Of a stretch of DNA of 7,899 bases, positions 1 to 7,899 are shown one piece after another; positions within the stretch are counted from its first letter, which is position 1, and each line of letters starts with the position of its first letter. Position numbers and translations under genes: made by a program. The stretch covers positions 1 through 7,899 of the forward strand of contig JAFOBK010000196.1 of NCBI GenBank assembly GCA_017381835.1, written 5' to 3'. The stretch comes from Oscillospiraceae bacterium (GTDB taxonomy: Bacteria > Bacillota_A > Clostridia > Oscillospirales > Oscillospiraceae). Under the pieces are notes generated by a model that saw nothing but the letters and a program-made list of their open reading frames with translations, was not told the DNA's origin and made no database searches.

Positions 1-650
1 CCGGTGCAGATCAGCTTCGCTCCATTCTGCTTCCGCTCATCCTTGTCCAAAACAAAAATCGCATCCACCGCACCGCTGATGCCGGTGGTGCCGGAGAGCT
101 TGTTGACGGGATCCCGGTCACTCTGCTTGCGCAGATGATGTACCAGCAGAATGGAGATGCGCTGGGTATCCGCAATGCGTTTGAGCTTTTGCAGTTCCTC
201 ATAGTCGCCGCCATAGGACGGCTCGCCGCTGCTGCTGCGCACCATCTGGAAGGTGTCGATGACCACCAGCACCGTGTCGGGATGCTCCCGGACGAATTTC
301 AGAATCTGCGCTTCCAGATCGTCCGCCAGAGAACCGGCGGCATTGGCAAAGAACAAATTCGCCGGAGCCTCATCGGTGATGCACCCCAGCCGCTGCTGAA
401 CCCGGAAGTAGGGATCCTCCAGACAGAGATACAGCGCAGTGCCTTTCGCAGTTTCCAGATTCCAAATGGGTTCGCCCTTCGCAACCCGCACACACAGATC
501 CATCACCATCCAGGACTTCCCCACCTTCGGCGCACCGCCGAGAATGCTCAACCCCTGGGGCAGCAGACTCTTCACACAAAACTTCGGCGGGGACAGGTTC
601 ATATCCAGTAAGGTTTCGCCGTCGATGACAGACAATTCTCGTTCATCCAT
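1..650 (-). CDS. RepA/AAA_25-type RecA-fold ATPase, 3' end cut off by window
   Basis: This is the N-terminal 216 residues of an ATPase that continues beyond the left edge. It starts at the ATG at 650, with AAAAGGAGG (658-666) seven bases upstream. Residues 38-46 are a Walker A motif (GGAPKVGKS). LYLCLED at 73-79 fits the segment that follows the first strand-helix unit in RecA/DnaB-like proteins. VLVVID at 127-132 is Walker B, and LLVHHLRK at 168-175 is the conserved strand followed by the H-x-R/K motif of RepA-like hexameric helicases. SGTTGISGAVD at 186-196 matches the usual continuation. Such proteins are known from plasmids, integrative elements and prophages, where they act as replicative helicases or helicase-loader-like ATPases. 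That role is inferred from the family; helicase activity and the missing C-terminal domain cannot be judged here. It is transcribed divergently from the gene at 789 and shares its control region. Confidence 0.88.
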   Translation of the reverse strand, partial: MDERELSVIDGETLLDMNLSPPKFCVKSLLPQGLSILGGAPKVGKSWMVMDLCVRVAKGEPIWNLETAKGTALYLCLEDPYFRVQQRLGCITDEAPANLFFANAAGSLADDLEAQILKFVREHPDTVLVVIDTFQMVRSSSGEPSYGGDYEELQKLKRIADTQRISILLVHHLRKQSDRDPVNKLSGTTGISGAVDAIFVLDKDERKQNGAKLICT

Positions 651-672
651 TTCTTATCCTCCTTTTCTGTAT

Positions 673-700
673 TTGCAAATCGCACCTTGCATGATATAAT
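673..700 (+). promoter_or_regulatory. Sigma-70-type promoter for the gene at 789
   Basis: A -35-like TTGCAA (673-678) is followed after 16 bases by a perfect -10 TATAAT (695-700), which predicts a transcript start near 707. The leader would be about 80 nt and would contain the 14-bp inverted repeat and the AGGAG ribosome binding site at 778-782. The match is by eye and the start site is unmapped. Confidence 0.6.
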
Positions 701-724
701 GTAATCGCCGTTAACCGAAATTGA

Positions 725-753
725 AATATGAAAGTGATCTTCACACAAATCAA
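725..753 (-). promoter_or_regulatory. Possible promoter for the leftward ATPase gene
   Basis: Read on the minus strand, TTGATT (753 to 748) and CATATT (730 to 725) are separated by 17 bases, each matching the consensus at four of six positions. The start would be near 718, about 68 bases before the ATG at 650. The spacer coincides with the left arm of the 14-bp inverted repeat. The box matches are only moderate, so this is a candidate. Confidence 0.35.
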
Positions 754-768
754 GGAAGATCACTTTCA
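729..768. repeat. Perfect 14-bp inverted repeat, candidate operator or leader hairpin
   Basis: The arms TGAAAGTGATCTTC (729-742) and its exact reverse complement (755-768) are separated by 12 bases. The repeat lies within the predicted 5' leader of the rightward gene, and its left arm and loop overlap the candidate leftward promoter. It has no T-run after it on either strand, so it is not an ordinary terminator. It could be a dimeric regulator's operator controlling both divergent genes, or a structured leader. The symmetry is seen directly; the function is inferred. Confidence 0.7.
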
Positions 769-788
769 GACATACACAGGAGTTGATT

Positions 789-1760
789 ATGATGGAACAG
801 ACGCCGGGATTGTATTTGACTCTCATGGATGATGGAGCTATCAGGAAACACCTCATCACTGCAACCGGCGCAGTGATTGAAGAAGAATCCACGATCATGA
901 ATGAGTTGATCCTGTACTCCGAGATCGACTATACGCCTTACGCAGATTTGATGGAGCATCTGGATAGTTGGAATTTCCACTTGCAGATCAACGGCGAGGA
1001 AATATTTGAAGATGTGAATATGTTTGAGTTTCATCGCTTCGCAACATTAGCCGATGAAACACTTGCCCTTCTGGAAGAAAGCCGTCCTCTCAGCGGAACA
1101 CTGATGCGCCTTCAGCTGGATCAGCATGTTCCCTGCGATGACGGCAGTGCTATGTATCCCTTCCTGGCGCATGAGCAAGCGATGCTCTGTCTGAAGGAAC
1201 CCATGCTGTTTCAGTTCACAATCAAGAGTGTGCTGTCCGATCTGGAAGAAAAGCTTCCCATCGATACCGAAAACAAATATGACTACCTTCGCAAATCGCA
1301 GTTCACGCAAATTACGATCCTTGACGGAACACTTTCATCTCAATACTATTTCTCTTCTGAAGAAGAATACTGCCGGTTTCTCCTGCTGCATTTCATCAAC
1401 CGCAACCCCAACGTGGCTCTGTGTCGCTGCTGCGGAAGATTCTTCATTCCGAAGACGAAAAAGAAAACTCTTTATTGTGACCGCATTGTCCATGAGGGGA
1501 AAACCTGCAAAGAAGTTGCGCCTCGGCTCAAACACAAAGTCAATTCTCAAAACGAAATCATCATTGAAGAATTTGACCGTGCCAAGCGAAGAATGTACAA
1601 GCGATACGAGCGTACACTGGACGAAAAGAAACCCTCCGGTAAGGATCTGGAATATACCCAATATTATGCATGGCTGAAGAAGGCGGCCGATGCACGTGAC
1701 AAGTGTCTTGCCGGAGAGATGCCTGAAGAGGAAGCATTGAAGGTCATCAACGTTCCGTAA
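789..1760 (+). CDS. DUF6076-like protein with four-cysteine zinc-finger-like motif
   Basis: This 323-residue soluble-looking protein has no signal peptide or membrane segment. The start is placed at ATG 789, six bases after AGGAG (778-782). An ATG at 792 is equally possible, and an upstream TTG at 783 abuts the ribosome binding site and is unlikely. The N-terminal two thirds are acidic and have no motif I know. A cluster C212-x2-C215-x14-C230-x9-C240 follows, with conserved-looking GRFF (216-219), a lysine run (224-226) and YCD (229-231); it is probably a zinc knuckle. After it comes a basic helical stretch (about 245-275, with RAKRRMYKRYER), then a YYAWL segment and a C-terminal tail. I recognise this as DUF6076-like, a family of unknown function in Clostridia. 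The zinc knuckle plus basic helix suggests nucleic-acid binding, which is inference. It leads a likely two-gene operon with 1834-2136. Confidence 0.8.
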   Translation: MMEQTPGLYLTLMDDGAIRKHLITATGAVIEEESTIMNELILYSEIDYTPYADLMEHLDSWNFHLQINGEEIFEDVNMFEFHRFATLADETLALLEESRPLSGTLMRLQLDQHVPCDDGSAMYPFLAHEQAMLCLKEPMLFQFTIKSVLSDLEEKLPIDTENKYDYLRKSQFTQITILDGTLSSQYYFSSEEEYCRFLLLHFINRNPNVALCRCCGRFFIPKTKKKTLYCDRIVHEGKTCKEVAPRLKHKVNSQNEIIIEEFDRAKRRMYKRYERTLDEKKPSGKDLEYTQYYAWLKKAADARDKCLAGEMPEEEALKVINVP

Positions 1761-1802
1761 GTTTGGAAGTATTGACACTTGTAAAATCCATTGCGGAGAG
1801 TT

Positions 1803-1832
1803 AACATCACCAACAACTTTGGAGGTGATGTT
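1803..1832 (+). promoter_or_regulatory. Inverted repeat overlapping the ribosome binding site of the next gene
   Basis: AACATCACC (1803-1811) and GGTGATGTT (1824-1832) are exact reverse complements with a 12-base loop. The right arm contains the 3' part of the very strong ribosome binding site GGAGGTGAT (1821-1829), directly before ATG 1834. When folded it would hide part of the site, so it could modulate translation. The hairpin is modest and its effect is inferred. Confidence 0.5.
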
Positions 1833-1833
1833 T

Positions 1834-2136
1834 ATGAAAGAATACTTCGAAACACTGATAGCTCACATTACGGAACACCCACCTGACTGCGGGGACGCCG
1901 ACTCCATCCTGGTACTTCTCTATGAAACCTACAATACAGTTAACACTATGGACGACGACCAGATCAAGGCAGATTTCAATGTGCTGTATCAGACAATGAA
2001 CGGCATGGTGCTGCGAGAGGTAGACAGGATTATCTACCCCGTCTGTACACTCTGCCGGGATCATGAGCGGGCTGGATTTATTCATGGTGTGCAAATCGGT
2101 GTCCGCCTTCTTCAAGAATTGGAAAGCGACGAATGA
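1834..2136 (+). CDS. Small uncharacterised protein, possibly DUF6809-like
   Basis: This 100-residue cytoplasmic-looking protein starts at ATG 1834, four bases after GGAGGTGAT. The TTG at 1819 lies in front of that site and is rejected as a start. It is acidic and predicted largely helical, with no signal or membrane segment. C71-x2-C74 sits just before a C-terminal helix with the pattern ERAGFIHGVQIGVRLLQEL (78-96). That F-x-x-G-x-x-x-G-x-R-L ending resembles small clostridial proteins of the DUF6809 type, but the assignment is tentative and no activity is known. It follows the DUF6076-like gene by 73 bases with no terminator between them, so the two are probably cotranscribed. A TTGACA at 1772-1777 lacks a convincing -10. 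Its downstream terminator has been split by the insertion sequence. Confidence 0.75.
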   Translation: MKEYFETLIAHITEHPPDCGDADSILVLLYETYNTVNTMDDDQIKADFNVLYQTMNGMVLREVDRIIYPVCTLCRDHERAGFIHGVQIGVRLLQELESDE

Positions 2137-2186
2137 TTCTAAAACGCAATCCGCTGCAACATCCGCAGTGACCAAAACAGAAAGCT

Positions 2187-2207
2187 AAAAGGGAGCGGCC
2201 CGCGGTC
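2187..2207. terminator. Left half of a bidirectional terminator interrupted by the IS
   Basis: AAAAGGGAG (2187-2195) is the exact reverse complement of CTCCCTTTT (3832-3840) on the far side of the insertion sequence. Removing the element and one target duplication gives a 9-bp stem, one C/A mismatch, four more pairs including one G-T, and a CGC loop, with A-run and T-run flanks. This suits a terminator between two convergent operons, 50 bases after the stop at 2136 and 6 bases after the stop at 3847. Confidence 0.7.
2198..2207. repeat. Target site duplication, left copy
   Basis: GCCCGCGGTC directly precedes the left inverted repeat and recurs at 3821-3830 directly after the right one. Because bases at the junction are ambiguous, an 8-bp duplication (CCCGCGGT, 2199-2206 and 3822-3829) with one extra base on each IS end fits equally well. 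Confidence 0.85.
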
Positions 2208-2220
2208 CAATACCATTAAG
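2208..2220. repeat. IS left terminal inverted repeat
   Basis: CAATACCATTAAG pairs with the reverse complement of 3808-3820, with one mismatch (A versus G at the fifth base). Confidence 0.85.
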
Positions 2221-2259
2221 ATAGCGGCCTTGGTTACCAAGCCCCTCTCATAACGAACG

Positions 2260-2288
2260 AGTGCATCCCGCGAGGGATGCACTTTTTC
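2260..2288 (+). terminator. Rho-independent terminator inside IS left end, rightward
   Basis: A perfect 10-bp stem (AGTGCATCCC at 2260-2269 with its complement at 2274-2283) closes a GCGA tetraloop and is followed by TTTTTC. It faces transcripts entering from the 789-2136 operon, so it would stop them about 50-80 bases inside the element before they run antisense through the transposase gene. Confidence 0.88.
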
Positions 2289-2308
2289 TGTAAAAAGGGC
2301 ATGACAAG

Positions 2309-2332
2309 TAAGCAGATTGCGAAATCTGCTTA
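2309..2332. repeat. Second hairpin downstream of the transposase stop
   Basis: TAAGCAGATT (2309-2318) and its exact complement (2323-2332) enclose another GCGA loop, 25 bases past the transposase stop codon. There is no T-run after it in either direction, so it is not a classical terminator; it may stabilise or help end the transposase transcript. Confidence 0.6.
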
Positions 2333-2357
2333 AAAAGAGCTGTTCAAATGGGGAAAG

Positions 2358-3668
2358 TTATGCTACCCTATAGAGGAAACCATTGAATCTTGGTCGATTT
2401 GCGTTTCTGGGAGCCTTCCGGTTGGGTCGGACAGGCACAAGATTCCTGGAAATATTGGTTTCAGCATCTGGCGGAGCTACGGATCCACGGAGAAACAGCC
2501 TGCATATATGTACGGCGGCAGAAAAGTTTGTCTGGTAAACATACTTTTCGCTTCGGTAGTGAACGGTTATATGAGACGTAACCAATTCACAGAAGTTGTA
2601 CATAAGACATCTGGCGAAAATCTCCTGGGAGATGTACTCCGCCTTTTTGCTTACCGGCTGCTTCAAACCAATGGTGTACTTCAAATCTCTAAAAGATGTT
2701 TCGATACCCCAGCGCAGATTATAAAGATGCTTGATTTCACTGGCAGGAAATTCGTCAGCAGACAAATTTGTAACGACTGTTTCGTAAGTATCTTCGGAAA
2801 TACGGAATCTGACAAAACGAACATTCAGATCATAATATTGGTTGTCATGCAGATCAATGTAATCGAAGGGCGAGGAATTGGGCAGACAGCGATACCGGGC
2901 TGGTTCATCTGCTTTCATTTTCTTGAAAGCATTTGTCTGCTTTCTGGTCAGAGTAATTGTTTTCCAAATATCCAGATCGCAGGCAGGCTTAAATTGAAAC
3001 GGACTTATTATCCCTGCGGTATCCCGAATCCGGATAAGGTATTTCCAGCCTTTCTTTTCCATATGAGCGATTCCATTGTAGGCTTCATAGTTTCTGTCTG
3101 CAATAAGGATCGCTTTTGGAATAGAAGAACGGTCGGTCATCTGTACCAGAGCAGCATTCTCATTCATTTTCCGGCCCTTTTGAATCAGAATATCCTGATA
3201 AGTTCTGCTCAGCAGGTCGTATACAGCATTGATATGGAGCAGACTATAGTGCTTTTGTCCATTTGCTCCGGGATAGTAGGAATCAGGATCGTTTGGATCA
3301 GCAAAGATTTGCAGATCAGAGCCGTCAGCTGCAAGCAGTTGGTATCCTTTGTAAAGCTGCTCTGTGACAGCTTGCTCGTTAAATCGGTGAAACAGGTATT
3401 CCAGAGCTTCCGGAAGAAGTTGTGCCCTGCGCTGCACAAAGGCCGAAGCGGATGCCATATCGGCTGAGCAATGAAAATGGTCGATCAGTTCATTTCGGAG
3501 TGAACCACCGCCCATAGAAACCATCATTGCCAATACTTTTTCAAACGGCAATTTCCTGTCCCTCCGAAAGTTTCGTTTCGGGTCAGTCACATACAGCCAG
3601 TGGTGAGCAGACATTTCGTGAATCAAGTCATACAGGGTGTTTTTTAGTTTCTCTATGTATTTTCCCAT
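2358..3668 (-). CDS. IS4-family DDE transposase
   Basis: This 436-residue transposase catalyses cut-and-paste movement of the surrounding element. The RNase H-like catalytic residues are visible: D115 in LLAADGSDLQ, D191 in ILIADRNYEAYN and E323 in YNLRWGIETSFRDLKY. The last segment is a perfect IS4 signature Y316-x2-R319-x3-E323-x6-K330. The N-terminal ~100 residues should hold the end-binding part (inferred from the family), and residues about 220-300 between D191 and E323 form the beta-rich insertion typical of IS4. The start is ATG 3668, eight bases after AAGGAGG (3677-3683). The gene appears intact, with no frameshift or internal stop. Its expression is probably low: a terminator lies upstream and its candidate promoter has a perfect TTGACA but no good -10. 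Confidence 0.95.
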   Translation of the reverse strand: MGKYIEKLKNTLYDLIHEMSAHHWLYVTDPKRNFRRDRKLPFEKVLAMMVSMGGGSLRNELIDHFHCSADMASASAFVQRRAQLLPEALEYLFHRFNEQAVTEQLYKGYQLLAADGSDLQIFADPNDPDSYYPGANGQKHYSLLHINAVYDLLSRTYQDILIQKGRKMNENAALVQMTDRSSIPKAILIADRNYEAYNGIAHMEKKGWKYLIRIRDTAGIISPFQFKPACDLDIWKTITLTRKQTNAFKKMKADEPARYRCLPNSSPFDYIDLHDNQYYDLNVRFVRFRISEDTYETVVTNLSADEFPASEIKHLYNLRWGIETSFRDLKYTIGLKQPVSKKAEYISQEIFARCLMYNFCELVTSHITVHYRSEKYVYQTNFSAAVHICRLFLRGSVAPPDAETNISRNLVPVRPNRKAPRNANRPRFNGFLYRVA

Positions 3669-3723
3669 CGGATGAGCCTCCTTAAAAATGCTTACAAGGC
3701 GGCATGTCCGATTTTTCGCACTT

Positions 3724-3729
3724 TGTCAA
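3724..3729 (-). promoter_or_regulatory. Candidate -35 box of the transposase promoter
   Basis: On the minus strand a consensus TTGACA (3729 to 3724) lies between the incoming terminator and the transposase start. The six bases 17 further on are CATGCC, a very poor -10. A weak promoter would suit a self-limiting insertion sequence, but no activity can be claimed. Confidence 0.35.
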
Positions 3730-3751
3730 GTACTTTCTTTGAAATTATGAA

Positions 3752-3794
3752 GAAAAAATACCCCTATGCCACTTTTTCGGTAGCATAGGGGTAT
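3752..3794 (-). terminator. Rho-independent terminator inside IS right end, leftward
   Basis: ATACCCCTATGC (3758-3769) and its exact complement (3783-3794) form a 12-bp stem with a 13-base loop. On the minus strand the stem is followed by a T-run and then CTTC. It sits upstream of the transposase gene in the same direction and would stop transcripts arriving from the hsdR operon. Such hairpins are known in IS4-family elements to prevent activation of the transposase by outside promoters. Confidence 0.82.
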
Positions 3795-3807
3795 CGGGTT
3801 AGATTAA

Positions 3808-3820
3808 CTTAATGGCATTG
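3808..3820. repeat. IS right terminal inverted repeat
   Basis: CTTAATGGCATTG is the partner of 2208-2220 with one mismatch. The transposase reads away from this end. Confidence 0.85.
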
Positions 3821-3830
3821 GCCCGCGGTC
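3821..3830. repeat. Target site duplication, right copy
   Basis: GCCCGCGGTC is identical to 2198-2207 and lies directly outside the right inverted repeat. Confidence 0.85.
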
Positions 3831-3831
3831 A

Positions 3832-3840
3832 CTCCCTTTT
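3832..3840. terminator. Right half of the interrupted bidirectional terminator
   Basis: CTCCCTTTT complements 2187-2195 exactly. It lies six bases past the stop codon of the metallopeptidase gene, so before the insertion it would have been the 5' half of the hsdR operon's terminator, read on the minus strand as AAAAGGGAG. Confidence 0.7.
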
Positions 3841-3846
3841 GCTCGT

Positions 3847-4578
3847 TTATAGATAATTTGCGGTATTCTCGTCCAGCACTTTCTTCCGCTCTCTCCAGTC
3901 CGGCATCAGCATTGTCAGGAATGCATAATACTGTTTAGAATGGTTCGGGTGGATAAAGTGGCAAAACTCATGGGTAACAACATACTCGATGCAATATCTT
4001 GGTGCTTCCAGAAGCCGCTTGTTCAGGGTGATAATCCCTTTCTTTGCCAGGCAGGAACCCCATCTGGTCTCCATATCCCGGATTCTCAGGGTAGGCATCG
4101 CAACTCCGTACTTCTGGAAAATGGGATATACCTCAGCAACAATCTCACCGAAAACCTGCCTGCACTGCTGATCAATGAATCTTGAGACCATCCGCTTTTT
4201 CTTCTCGAAATCCATTGGATCCCTGACTTGCAGATAGAGATGGACACCGTCAGAGGAAATCTGATCCTTAGCCGCCTGCACAACCTGGAGCCGAAGACCT
4301 CTGCCCTGGATATAAAAGGTTTCACCACTGACATACTGCTTGGGCTGTGGTCTATACTGTGCCTGCTCTGCAAACCGCTTCTGGGCGTTCAGAATAAAGC
4401 TGACCTTACTTTCCAGAAAAGCATCCACCTGTTCATCAGGAATGAGCTTGTTGGCAGACACGTAAACAGACCCATCACGGCGAACATGCAAATTCAGGTT
4501 CTTGACATTCTTTCGTTCCAGCTCATAGGGAATTTGTTTCCCTTCAGCACTGATGGTTCGCTTTTGAATTTGTTCCAT
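3847..4578 (-). CDS. YgjP/SprT-like (M48-type) zinc metallopeptidase, DUF45 family
   Basis: This 243-residue cytoplasmic protein has no signal peptide or membrane segment. The zinc-binding HEFCH motif is at 203-207, and H213 within HPNHS (210-214) is the likely third ligand. RWGSC at 172-176 and MPDWRERKK at 225-233 are typical of the YgjP-like family. The N-terminal half (about 15-100) is the beta-rich region seen in these proteins. The length is normal. The gene begins at ATG 4578, whose A is the last base of the hsdR stop codon, with GGAGG (4584-4588) inside the end of hsdR, so translational coupling is likely. Family members are often found beside type I restriction genes; what they cleave there is not known to me. 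The protein is complete, with the insertion sequence only 26 bases past its stop. Confidence 0.9.
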   Translation of the reverse strand: MEQIQKRTISAEGKQIPYELERKNVKNLNLHVRRDGSVYVSANKLIPDEQVDAFLESKVSFILNAQKRFAEQAQYRPQPKQYVSGETFYIQGRGLRLQVVQAAKDQISSDGVHLYLQVRDPMDFEKKKRMVSRFIDQQCRQVFGEIVAEVYPIFQKYGVAMPTLRIRDMETRWGSCLAKKGIITLNKRLLEAPRYCIEYVVTHEFCHFIHPNHSKQYYAFLTMLMPDWRERKKVLDENTANYL

Positions 4579-7500
4579 CAGAACCTCCGCAATGCCACGG
4601 TTTTGACATTCTCAATGATCTTATCAATAACCTCAAAGTCCAGTTTCAATCCTCTGTCCTTCTCGTAGTCATAGAACAGATCATCAATGTCCTGGGAGAT
4701 CCGATCGTGGATCGTCTGGTTATTCGTCCAGTCGACCTGGCTGTGCTTTGCGATAATGGCAGTAATCTCAATCGCGATCTCTGCAGCAAAATCCGCCGTC
4801 ATCTCTTCTACCTGAGCTTCATCAAACAGCGCAGAAAGCACACCGTAGAACGCCTGGGCATGGACATTATGCTTGATAGACTCCGGATAGCTGACGGTAC
4901 TCTTGCCTGCATGGTAATCCTCCATGATACTGCGCATCTTTGCCAGATACTCTGCTTCGCTGATCACCTTCTCCTTGTACTGCTCCAGCGCATCCTTGAT
5001 CCGCTTGGAGAAGCTATCGTAGTACGCAGGGTTCTCGGTATACTTGGAACTGATGCTTCTCGACAGTCTGCTGGTGATGGCATCTGCCTTCGCCCGCAGG
5101 GATCCCAGCTCTTCCAGTTCTCTTTCAAAGTCATCCTTGTTCAGGATGTCCACAGGATTGGAAATCTGCTTCAGACCGGCAACAGGCAGATGCGTATCCA
5201 GCAGATTCTGCATCAGAGGCTCATATTCGCTATTGTCGATAGCATCGCAGTAACGAATCTTCACGCTGCGGCGAACCTTCGAGAAGAAGACAAACGTATC
5301 CTGATAGCGCTTCAATTCATCCTTCGGAATCGCAGCATATACCTGTTCAGAATTTAGCGCCAGATTCAGCGCCCTGCCGAAGGAACACAGCCGATTATAG
5401 AAACTCTCCCGCTTCTTTTCATCTGCCAGCGCGACCTCAATTGCTTCCGTATCTTTCTTGTTCTTCACATCGTCGAACAGATCAACCAAGTTTGTGTAGG
5501 CATCACGAAGCCGCCCCAATGCTTCCAGGACATCGACCACGACACCCTTCAGATCACCGCCGTCAAAGTTTTCCAAGCCTGCACCGCTGTACATATCCAT
5601 GGCTGCATCTAGTTTCTGAATCAGTCCTCGGTAGTCAACAATCAGACCATATTCCTTGCCCTCCCGCAGACGGTTGGTTCGGGCAATGGCCTGGAGCAAG
5701 CCATGCTCCTTCAGTTCCTTGTCGATGTACAGCACCTGACAAACCGGTGCATCGAAGCCCGTCAGCAGTTTGCTACACACGATGAGAATGTCGATCTCGC
5801 CATCGCAGAACTTATTCTTCATTGCTTCTTCGTAGGCATCCGCATCACCGTACTGCTTCATCATCTTTTCCCAGTACTCGATGACCATATCATCGGTGCC
5901 TTCGTCGATATCATCCACACTTTCACGCATGTCGGGAGGGGAAATCACAACCGCACAGGTCAGATCGCCAAACTGCTCGAAGCATTTCAGATATCGGATA
6001 GCATCACGCTTGTAGTTGGTGGCCAGCATGGCCTTGAAGCCGGGATCCTTGAAGCCCAGGAGGAAATGGTTGTTGATATCCAGGGCGATTCGTTTGATTC
6101 TGGCATCCGTGGAGGTCAGTCGGCGGATGCTGCTCCATTTCTGGCGCAGATCTTCTTTCTGCGCATCTGTCAGGCGTTTCGTGGTCTGCTTGAACCACAT
6201 ATCGATGTTTTCCTCGTCTACCTTCTGTTCAACGAACCGTCCTTCGTAAATCAGAGGAACAATCGCACCGTCCTCAACACCGTCTCGAATCGTGTACTTG
6301 TGGATCAGTTTGCCGAATTTGGCCATCGTGTTCTTCTCACGCTTCATCAGCGGCGTACCGGTAAAGCCGATGTAACAGGCGTTGGGGAAAACAGTTCGCA
6401 TCTTGGTGGCCATGGCGCCATAATTGGAGCGGTGGCTCTCGTCGATCAGGACAAACACATCCTGAGAATAATTCTTGGCATCCAGCCGCTCTGCGGTAAT
6501 GAACTTATTGATGATGCTGGTAATCACATCAGCCTTGCCGCTGGTGACCAGCTCCACCAGATGCCGTCCGCTGGTGGCTCGTGCAGGATTCAGCCGAGTG
6601 TGGGCAAATGTGGCTGCGATCTGACCGTCCAATTCCTTACGATCGGTGACGATGACCACACGGGGATTGCAGGATGCCAGCTCCATCAGGATGTATTTCG
6701 CCAGCATGACCATCGTCAGGCTCTTGCCGCTGCCCTGGGTGTGCCAGATGACACCGCTCTGCCGGTTTCCCTTGGAATCCTTCTCCTTAATGGTCTTTAT
6801 GATCTCCTTAATGGCGAAATACTGCTGATAACGGGCGATCTTCTTCACATTGGCATCGAACAGAACGAAATAGCGCACCAGCTCCATGACCCGCTCCCGG
6901 CTCAGCAGCGAAATGATGTTTCTGTCCTGTTCCGTGGGGATCCGATCCGGCACCAGGGTCGCCAATGCGTTCTGCGAAAAAGCCTCGTCTTCCTCTTTCC
7001 ACACATTCCAGAACTTCTTGGGCGTGCCGGTGGTGGCGTATTTTACCGCATTTTTGTTGGTGGCCATGACGATTTGGGCATACTTGTATAGTTGGGGGAT
7101 GTACTCGGCCTGCTGGTTGCGGATGTTCTGCTCCACGGCCTGATCCACGGAGACATGGGGAGCCTTGCACTCGATCACGGCGAAGGGAATGCCGTTGATG
7201 AAAAGCACGATATCCGGACGAGCATCGTGCCGCTTGTCCCGGCTGTCTACGGCGAATTCCTCGGTCACATGGAAGAGGTTGTTGTCCCAGTTGTCCCAGT
7301 CGATGTATTTCAGATTGAAGCTGAGGGACTTGCCGCCGCCCACGGTTTCGGGATAGCTTTTGCCCAGCAGGAGGGCATCGTAAATCTTCTCACTGGTGCG
7401 CACCAGACCGTCCACCAGCGGCTCGTCCAGCTCGTCCATAGCTCGCTCGATGTTGGCGGCGGAGAACTCATTTTCTGCACCGGCATAGGTGTAGCGGTTC

Positions 7501-7667
7501 AGTCTGCGCAGCTGCCCACGGAGGATATCTTTCAGCAGAACATGGTATCTGCTGCCCCGCTGTTTCTCGCAGTCCTCCGGGGAGATGTAGGTATATCCCA
7601 TGGACTGGAGCAGTTCAATGGCCGGAATCTGGCTGACATTGCGCTCCAGATAGGCGTTTTGGTCCAT
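4578..7667 (-). CDS. hsdR: Type I restriction enzyme R subunit (HsdR)
   Basis: This 1029-residue subunit translocates DNA using ATP and cleaves it, working in a complex with HsdM and HsdS. The N-terminal PD-(D/E)xK nuclease is visible as D152 in ARPDIVLF with E166-C-K168 in AVIECKAP, followed by a glutamine-rich helix. Helicase motifs follow in order: Walker A HTQGSGKS (309-316), DESH (409-412), TGTP (436-439), LLTGFDAP (634-641) and QAIARTNR (659-666). The remaining ~360 residues are the helical C-terminal part expected to contact the methylase core. All catalytic residues and the normal length are present, so it should be active. The start is set at ATG 7667, seven bases after GGAGG (7675-7679); an in-frame ATG at 7703 has no comparable site and lies before that GGAGG. 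The metallopeptidase gene overlaps its stop codon. No hsdM or hsdS is in the window. Confidence 0.95.
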   Translation of the reverse strand: MDQNAYLERNVSQIPAIELLQSMGYTYISPEDCEKQRGSRYHVLLKDILRGQLRRLNRYTYAGAENEFSAANIERAMDELDEPLVDGLVRTSEKIYDALLLGKSYPETVGGGKSLSFNLKYIDWDNWDNNLFHVTEEFAVDSRDKRHDARPDIVLFINGIPFAVIECKAPHVSVDQAVEQNIRNQQAEYIPQLYKYAQIVMATNKNAVKYATTGTPKKFWNVWKEEDEAFSQNALATLVPDRIPTEQDRNIISLLSRERVMELVRYFVLFDANVKKIARYQQYFAIKEIIKTIKEKDSKGNRQSGVIWHTQGSGKSLTMVMLAKYILMELASCNPRVVIVTDRKELDGQIAATFAHTRLNPARATSGRHLVELVTSGKADVITSIINKFITAERLDAKNYSQDVFVLIDESHRSNYGAMATKMRTVFPNACYIGFTGTPLMKREKNTMAKFGKLIHKYTIRDGVEDGAIVPLIYEGRFVEQKVDEENIDMWFKQTTKRLTDAQKEDLRQKWSSIRRLTSTDARIKRIALDINNHFLLGFKDPGFKAMLATNYKRDAIRYLKCFEQFGDLTCAVVISPPDMRESVDDIDEGTDDMVIEYWEKMMKQYGDADAYEEAMKNKFCDGEIDILIVCSKLLTGFDAPVCQVLYIDKELKEHGLLQAIARTNRLREGKEYGLIVDYRGLIQKLDAAMDMYSGAGLENFDGGDLKGVVVDVLEALGRLRDAYTNLVDLFDDVKNKKDTEAIEVALADEKKRESFYNRLCSFGRALNLALNSEQVYAAIPKDELKRYQDTFVFFSKVRRSVKIRYCDAIDNSEYEPLMQNLLDTHLPVAGLKQISNPVDILNKDDFERELEELGSLRAKADAITSRLSRSISSKYTENPAYYDSFSKRIKDALEQYKEKVISEAEYLAKMRSIMEDYHAGKSTVSYPESIKHNVHAQAFYGVLSALFDEAQVEEMTADFAAEIAIEITAIIAKHSQVDWTNNQTIHDRISQDIDDLFYDYEKDRGLKLDFEVIDKIIENVKTVALRRF

Positions 7668-7707
7668 GATTTTGCCTCCATTCGGATTGATTTCAAAAAG
7701 CACGAAT

Positions 7708-7734
7708 AGCGGGGCGGGATTATCCCGCCTCGCT
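7708..7734 (-). other. Strong hairpin between the upstream gene and hsdR
   Basis: GGCGGG (7713-7718) pairs with CCCGCC (7724-7729) around a five-base loop. After one mismatch (7712/7730) four more pairs form (7708-7711 with 7731-7734). It begins two bases past the stop codon at 7736. On the minus strand a T-run (CTTTTTG) starts seven bases beyond the stem, so termination would be weak or partial. It could reduce hsdR transcription relative to the upstream gene or protect a transcript end. Confidence 0.6.
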
Positions 7735-7735
7735 C

Positions 7736-7899
7736 TTAATAAAAACGCATTGTAGCAAAATAGGTCAAGGTCATTTGCAGAATTTCGGAAGGGCTTTTTC
7801 CGGCATCAATAATCGCTTTCAGCTCTCGCTTCATTTTCTCACTGTAATTAGGACTGTTATCCACGGTCTGCTTCAGTGCTTCCTTTGTCAGATGTTCCG
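7736..7899 (-). CDS. C-terminal 53 residues of an unidentified leftward gene
   Basis: An open frame enters from the right edge and ends at TAA (7738 to 7736). The visible residues are hydrophilic and helical, with a lysine/glutamate-rich part (KMKRELKAIIDAG, residues 21-33 of the fragment), then SPSEILQMTLTYF, and finish in ATMRFY. I do not recognise the family and find no motif. It is not the typical end of HsdS or HsdM that I could name. The other two frames on this strand contain early stops, which supports the reading. It lies upstream of hsdR in the same direction, so it may belong to the same operon. Confidence 0.6.
   Translation of the reverse strand, partial: EHLTKEALKQTVDNSPNYSEKMKRELKAIIDAGKSPSEILQMTLTYFATMRFY

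Follow-up and report, generated by a model that had tools for sequence, protein, structure and literature searches.

Most copies of an IS4-family insertion sequence lineage lie on the axis of inverted repeats, mostly terminator-like hairpins

We analyzed 7,899 nucleotides of DNA from an Oscillospiraceae bacterium (GenBank assembly GCA_017381835.1, contig JAFOBK010000196.1, positions 1 to 7,899; hereafter, the window), in which a 1613-bp insertion sequence (IS) of the IS4 family splits a host hairpin located between convergent genes. Comparison of this element with its relatives indicates that the transposase of this IS4-family lineage likely targets the dyad axis of short inverted repeats, most of which are terminator-like hairpins. 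An earlier note on the window had proposed that the element chose an intrinsic terminator, and suggested comparing the reconstructed empty sites of other copies with intergenic positions. In this comparison, 55 of the 83 scored copies are centered on an inverted repeat, against 3.0% of intergenic positions, and 44 of the 83 carry a T-tail in addition, against 0.42%. Thus, the targeting idea is largely supported and group-wide.

A 25-row transposase alignment yielded 80 genome-contig loci (the best 80 of 495 relatives, 44-52% identical) and 10 loci in viral contigs, and the sample was extended by pattern and protein searches in related genomes together with region fetches. Copies were selected by matching ends and a duplication, for which the end-pair finder accepted lengths of 9-12 bp only; hairpins were no criterion. 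No duplication is visible where a copy lies at a contig end or has unequal flanks, as is the case for many of 80 end pairs, and such copies were left out of the counts. The resulting 131 candidate end pairs were reduced to 84 that are distinct by their 22-base flanks in either orientation, which merges copies within one repeated hairpin (for example, L144), and 83 of these, the window included, were scored, L162 being dropped because of an N in its flank. The ends (CAATGTCATTAAGTTAAG) are common to the relatives, and the duplication is 10 bp long in 71 of the 83 copies and 9, 11, or 12 bp in the others. At the 69 sites whose transposase aligns across more than 300 residues, identity to the transposase of the window is 34-50% (median, 47%). 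The lineage occurs in many bacteria of the gut, rumen, and soil, most of which are Bacillota judging by record titles.

Each site was scored for symmetric pairs among 11, centered within one base of the middle of the duplication, taking the best of five registers, and 124,236 sampled host positions were scored in the same way. Further backgrounds were 71,665 intergenic positions and 20,940 positions within 120 bp downstream of an open reading frame (ORF), with genes defined by open frame alone. At least 9 pairs form in 55 of the 83 copies, compared with 2.3% of host, 3.0% of intergenic, and 3.5% of downstream positions; at least 10 form in 46 copies (0.34%, 0.65%, and 0.82%, respectively) and all 11 in 27 copies (0.028%, 0.13%, and 0.16%). 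With the window left out, the counts are 54/82 for at least 9 pairs, 45/82 for at least 10, and 44/82 for at least 9 with a T-tail. When 33 element clusters are weighted equally, a fraction of 0.58 reaches at least 9 pairs, and 21 of the 33 include at least one such site. The signal in the first 50 copies is strongest exactly at the center of the duplication, with 28 copies at shift 0, 9 and 10 at one base to either side, and 0-7 at each of the other 22 shifts.

The two arms covary: across 49 sites, partner columns pair beyond the expectation from composition at distances d = 4-12 from the axis (p 0.0005-0.002 per column, 2000 shuffles). Furthermore, the sites are more complementary than host positions matched by weight matrix (9.2 versus 7.0 pairs, 0/200 draws). 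The flanks are also A-rich on the left and T-rich on the right at d = 11-15 (at d = 13, A 82% and T 76%). Composition and complementarity therefore both carry the signal. The length of the duplication follows the parity of the axis in the 55 good stems: all 5 odd duplications lie on odd axes, and 34 of the 50 even ones lie on even axes (Fisher p 0.006), three of the five odd-duplication sites being similar sites of one genome (G003). Arm sequences vary from site to site, except where repeated hairpins were hit repeatedly (genome G227 and some C. manihotivorum sites). Thus, the arms are not element ends; their presence at every copy, which the earlier note had named as refuting its idea, is not seen. 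A first terminator count was replaced because the T-tract had been paired into the stem; this superseded folding count gave a centered stem in 40 of 50 copies versus 608 of 2945 intergenic controls, and a right tail in 12 of 50.

Most of the inverted repeats resemble intrinsic terminators. At least 9 pairs together with a T-tail on either strand are present in 44 of 83 copies, compared to 0.17% of host, 0.42% of intergenic, and 0.69% of downstream positions. Among equally good hairpins, tailed ones are preferred: a tail is found in 78-80% of the sites but in 8% (at least 9 pairs) to 29% (11 pairs) of the background, for which 367,325 host positions were sampled. The flanking genes are divergent in 4 of the 52 contexts with a good stem. 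What the branches share is an inverted repeat with its center on the duplication; a T-tail is often present, but some branches do without it.

For controls, IS256- and ISL3-type elements were sought in 20 of the relatives' genomes, with a second search replacing an earlier control finder that detected one element. Of 23 candidates from 44 loci, L257, L303, L304, L306, and L313 were judged to have wrong ends and set aside, and among the remaining 18, one reaches 9 pairs and none reaches 10 (Fisher p 1.7e-6 against the group). Centering on the axis is what sets the group apart from these elements.

The site in the window comprises the following features:

2187..2196, left outer arm of the split host hairpin (AAAAGGGAG plus a mismatched C)
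2198..2207, left copy of the target duplication GCCCGCGGTC, near-palindromic, corresponding to the loop and inner stem of the split hairpin
2208..3820, minus strand (that of its transposase), IS4-family insertion sequence of 1613 bp, recognized by ends resembling those of the relatives and by the 10-bp duplication
3821..3830, right copy of the target duplication GCCCGCGGTC, 10 bp
3831..3840, right outer arm of the split host hairpin (a mismatched A plus CTCCCTTTT)
1819..2136, plus strand, host ORF nearest to the site on the left; 1822-2136 has no Pfam or NCBIfam match
3847..4578, minus strand, host gene for a YgjP-like metallopeptidase (domain search), nearest to the site on the right

Rereading of the sequence confirmed that the arms AAAAGGGAG (2187-2195) and CTCCCTTTT (3832-3840) are exact reverse complements outside the 10-bp duplications, and that the near-palindromic duplication is centered on CCGCGG (2200-2205). 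When the element and one duplication are removed, the joined site folds, as had been claimed, into a single 31-nt hairpin with 9 + 4 pairs, a CGC loop, one C.A mismatch, and one G.U pair (-17.7 kcal/mol, equaled by 0 of 200 shuffles; -22.2 kcal/mol for the 43-nt context). The position between the stop codons of convergent genes also holds: the plus-strand ORF ends at 2136, 50 bp before the left arm, and the right arm lies 6 bp from the end of the YgjP-like ORF. The site forms 10 of 11 centered pairs, a score reached by 0.34% of the sampled host positions and 0.82% of those downstream of ORFs. A stable hairpin thus follows a stop codon here, as in an intrinsic terminator, and the split hairpin may have functioned as one. 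The A-run before and the T-run after the hairpin are present as described, but the T-runs are short, as discussed below.

Natural empty sites were sought as well. For an Enterococcus relative of IS1675 (L346; IS1675 is compared with the group below), the joined flanks match three plasmid records at 100% over 290 bp with the hairpin intact. For one copy in genome G946 (L284), G1016, one of four related genomes, keeps both flank stretches at 66-69% identity without the element, and the syntenic element-free interval contains a strong terminator-like hairpin of different sequence. The comparison with strains lacking the IS, which the earlier note had called for, was thus achieved exactly for the IS1675 relative but not for the window locus. 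The right flank of the window matched 8 of 394 genomes, with three long matches at 68-69%, and the plasmid records held no near match to its flanks. Three YgjP relatives had diverged too far at their 3' ends to be compared; the hairpins seen there, in L349 and L350, may or may not correspond to that of the window.

Most of the elements also carry terminator-like hairpins of their own, oriented inward. In the window, these are, from sequence and folding:

2259..2287, plus strand, inward-facing terminator-like hairpin, GAGTGCATCCCGCGAGGGATGCACTT followed by a T-run
3753..3795, minus strand, inward-facing terminator-like hairpin, GATACCCCTATGC...GCATAGGGGTATT followed by TTTTC on the minus strand

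The stretch 2247-2292 folds at -22.8 kcal/mol (z -5.5) and the stretch 3738-3800 at -26.2 kcal/mol (z -7.6); the former hairpin would be expected to stop transcripts entering from the left genes, and the latter those entering from the right operon. Among 39 distinct elements, an inward hairpin is present at the left end (transposase 5') in 30, at the right end (3') in 29, at both in 23, and at either in 36, compared with 0.5% and 1% for dinucleotide-shuffled ends. Outward-facing hairpins are rarer (14/39 and 20/39), and 12 control elements gave inward counts of 2, 6, and 2. In other insertion sequences, hairpins are known to protect the transposase gene against transcription from outside; in the present group, the inward hairpins could also replace the function of the split terminator.

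Under the reading that we favor, the target of the lineage would be the dyad axis of a short inverted repeat, which is a terminator-like hairpin in most of the branches sampled. The transposase, which we infer to choose the site itself, would cut about 5 bp to either side of the axis, so that the loop and inner stem turn into the duplication of 9-12 bp, usually 10 bp, flanked by the outer arms and their A- and T-tracts. The dyad might be sensed by recognition of a physical structure, namely, an extruded DNA hairpin or cruciform, or as a palindromic duplex with flanking A/T tracts. Because 36 of the 39 elements have an inward end hairpin, host transcripts robbed of their terminator could stop soon after entering the element (in the window, within its first 80 bp), and the transposase gene could be shielded from read-through. 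A more specific version, possible if on balance doubtful, is that the lineage finds intrinsic terminators by their DNA secondary structure: a transposase dimer would bind at the dyad where a hairpin or cruciform is extruded next to the A/T tracts, the cut spacing of 9-12 bp would adjust to the loop, and the terminators at the element ends would replace the broken one and serve the neighboring genes.

Several observations weigh against targeting of terminator-like hairpins as a general rule of the group. In the window, the T-runs are just 4 long on each strand, with a tail score of 3.5, below the cut of 3.90 used, and the empty site of this locus was not found among 394 genomes and the plasmid records. 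In the sample as a whole, 28 of the 83 copies do not reach 9 of 11 pairs, among them 17 with a score of at most 7; to our eye, some of these look like offset or bulged hairpins, but L034, L074, L156, L158, L245, and L249 do not. A few lineages supply many of the sites, the largest element cluster contributing 28 of 83. In a transposase tree, which besides the group includes two IS1675-type rows only, one with 18% of its columns filled, hairpin and non-hairpin copies do not cluster separately, and copies of a single transposase straddle the cut. The scored tail is weak at the G227 and G332 sites (L143, L146, L147, and L149), no tail is seen at the IS1675 site L334, and 7 of 13 scored IS1675-type copies reach 9 pairs, some of them sharing one site. 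The stronger tail shows no side preference relative to the transposase (41 versus 41), and a by-eye impression that it lies on the transposase 3' side was dropped on this count. Finally, the IS256-family controls L251 and L255 lie, by eye, in or beside terminator-like hairpins, and an uncounted element of that family that was missed by the finder (L261) appears to do so, so that insertion sequences in these genomes may often have surroundings of this kind.

As for the suggestion that the subgroup recognizes hairpins, the enrichment on the axis agrees with it, but the transposase could instead read a palindromic motif in the sequence or shape of the duplex (an A-tract, a purine-rich arm, a pyrimidine-rich arm, and a T-tract), with terminators being the commonest match and no extrusion involved. 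We consider the chance of this to be not far short of even. The strong left A and right T at d = 11-15 fit such a motif, a weight matrix by itself separates the sites from the background with an area under the curve of 0.967, the IS1675-type sites have a GGGTATACCC-like core in common, and target specificity reported for the IS231 subgroup in the accessible part of a review of the IS4 family (PMC2266710) is the nearest precedent. However, a motif of this kind leaves unaccounted for the complementarity above that of matrix-matched host positions and the reversed targets in G227 and G332, where the outer stem is GC-rich and the inner stem AT-rich. The hairpin and duplex readings overlap because any palindrome is readable either way.

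That the transposase is drawn instead to a paused RNA polymerase, an R-loop, or a nascent RNA hairpin at terminators is improbable; the preference for tailed over equally good untailed hairpins speaks for it, whereas some lineages hit palindromes with a weak tail or none, and the lack of an orientation bias toward the stronger tail weighs against it weakly. Even less credit is due to mere tolerance, under which elements would land at random and insertions in terminators would survive as the least harmful, helped by the terminator-like hairpins of the element. The sites are indeed mostly at gene 3' ends, and the elements bring possible replacement terminators, but survival would leave unexplained the centering on the axis to about a base, the link between duplication parity and axis, the contrast with positions just downstream of genes, and the different result for IS256 and ISL3 elements from these genomes. 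Least credible of all is an artifact at the window, with the arms belonging to the element or created by an assembly join: although an empty-site strain for this locus was not found, the arms of the relatives differ while their ends and duplication length are common.

The element itself has the hallmarks of the IS4 family. Its transposase is encoded as follows:

2358..3668, minus strand, transposase of 436 amino acids with DDE (D115, D191, and E323) and YREK (Y316, R319, E323, and K330) residues, from NCBIfam, Pfam, and alignment

The transposase matches NCBIfam NF033592 (IS4 family; 177 bits, curated cut-off 115) and Pfam DDE_Tnp_1. D115, D191, and E323 are invariant in the 25-row alignment, with 75 and 131 residues between them, which fits the D(60-110)D(100-150)E spacing of the family, and Y316, R319, E323, and K330, likewise invariant, form its Y(2)R(3)E(6)K motif (both as given in the accessible part of PMC2266710). 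From the same partial source, the single-ORF transposase and a duplication of about one helix turn agree with the family, and 1613 bp with a 10-bp repeat falls within the ranges of subgroup IS4 (1400-1650 bp and 10-13 bp, Table 1). The element ends are CAATACCATTAAGATAG and CAATGCCATTAAGTTAATC, and their terminal motifs, CAATACCATTAAG and CAATGCCATTAAG, resemble the CAATGTCATTAAGTTAAG ends of the relatives, which carry 10-bp duplications. By hand comparison, CAATA...ATA and CAATG...TTA fit the subgroup IS4 pattern -AATR--------WTW----, but they also fit the printed IS4Sa pattern CA------T, so that the end patterns do not separate the two subgroups. The exact flanking match extends to 11 bp (GGCCCGCGGTC) when the last G of the element is counted, and an alternative boundary with an 8-bp duplication and CCAAT ends is possible; the relatives favor CAAT ends and 10 bp. 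Among the best 120 matches listed, the protein database holds copies 75-100% identical to the window transposase, as sequences without genomic context. A search with the transposase's own peptides confirmed no close relatives in genome contigs or viral contigs, and a window-like end pattern in viral contigs (L314) was rejected for lack of a related transposase by tblastn. The predicted structure (mean predicted local distance difference test score 65) was too weak for structure searching, and a search of solved structures gave no match to the window transposase.

Mobile elements that use terminator hairpins are known from group IIC introns, which land at intrinsic terminators; unlike the present group, these are retroelements that reverse-splice beside the stem, with no DDE transposase and no duplication. 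Closer to the group is IS1675, represented by relatives in Lactococcus and Enterococcus and named from plasmid annotation, which has the same ends and a transposase about 41% identical. Exact 10-bp duplications flank 12 of the 15 IS1675-type copies read, of which L091 alone is among the 83. It differs in the GGGTATACCC-like core common to the target sites of the copies read and in at least one site without a T-tail (L334). In these copies (L334-L347 and L091, on Lactococcus and Enterococcus plasmids), the core lies inside a longer palindrome, and several of them adjoin Fst-type toxin-antitoxin genes or BRCT-domain genes.

Hairpin-seeking insertion sequences are already known, namely IS1272, which we take to belong to the IS1182 family, and ISRm22. 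According to the accessible part of the respective report, IS1272 / TnSha1 inserts into hairpins without primary-sequence specificity, and five of its seven named targets are transcription terminators confirmed by RNA-seq (PMC4923244). As described there, its insertion is blunt and within the stem, with partial deletion of the hairpin, no duplication, and both orientations at one site, whereas the present group duplicates the loop region (9-12 bp) and retains both arms. Accordingly, the window shows neither the hairpin deletion nor the lack of duplication typical of IS1272; the relatives were preselected for duplication and do not bear on this point. ISRm22, an IS4-family element of Sinorhizobium meliloti, has all nine copies in repetitive extragenic palindromes (REPs) and, like the present group, sits at the axis of a palindromic target with direct repeats (PMC1525189, in the part available). 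ISRm22 targets one repeated REP sequence, whereas the targets of the present group differ between sites, with the exception of G227, and are mostly tailed terminator-like hairpins. The subgroups IS4, IS4Sa, and IS231 resemble the window element in DDE and YREK residues, a single ORF, and duplications of about 10 bp, and some IS4-family members show strong specificity for target arms (PMC2266710); the word 'terminator' does not occur in the accessible text of this review. Among the matches listed in a literature search, which did not reach most subscription papers, there was no report of terminator targeting by the present group.

About two thirds of the relatives examined likewise occupy terminator-like hairpins, so that the group seems to select landing sites that are safe for genes. 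A general strategy for sparing genes is known for few DNA transposons, and the preference of this group for the axis, sequence-diverse and accurate to about a base, amounts to a testable safe-site rule. Beside IS1272, it is an example of another transposase family choosing targets in a structure-like manner, and the group is a candidate for insertion tools aimed at operon 3' ends. The inward terminator-like hairpins suggest that the choice of target and the design of the element have evolved together.

Additional observations concern individual branches and loci. The elements of G227 (L143, L144, L146, and L147) and G332 (L149) form a branch with transposases 39-41% identical, located in hairpins of the ggggacg...cgtcccc type, the reverse of the terminator layout in having a GC-rich outer and an AT-rich inner stem; in G227, at least three copies occupy copies of one repeat. 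In C. manihotivorum, five copies of one 1690-bp element type (L123, L126, L128, L130, and L132) lie in similar hairpins with 11-bp duplications, and two of the same size (L125 and L129) have 10-bp duplications. Locus L157 (3001-5065) contains a 2065-bp element with the ends of the group, a 10-bp duplication, and a terminator-like hairpin site, in which there is no transposase match; on our reading, which involved no family search, its two ORFs look like a metallo-beta-lactamase-fold hydrolase and a methyltransferase. Mobile insertion cassettes are known for IS231, and the L157 element is perhaps one. A 133-bp element resembling a miniature inverted-repeat transposable element, with the ends of the group and the duplication GGGAAATCCC, is found at L106 (1501-1633).

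The remaining host genes identified in the window are:

783..1760, plus strand, ORF for a DUF6076 protein (Pfam match with the stretch 786-1760)
4578..7703, minus strand, gene for HsdR, the R subunit of a type I restriction enzyme (domain search)

The YgjP-like gene follows hsdR of this type I restriction system and overlaps it by one base (3847-7703).

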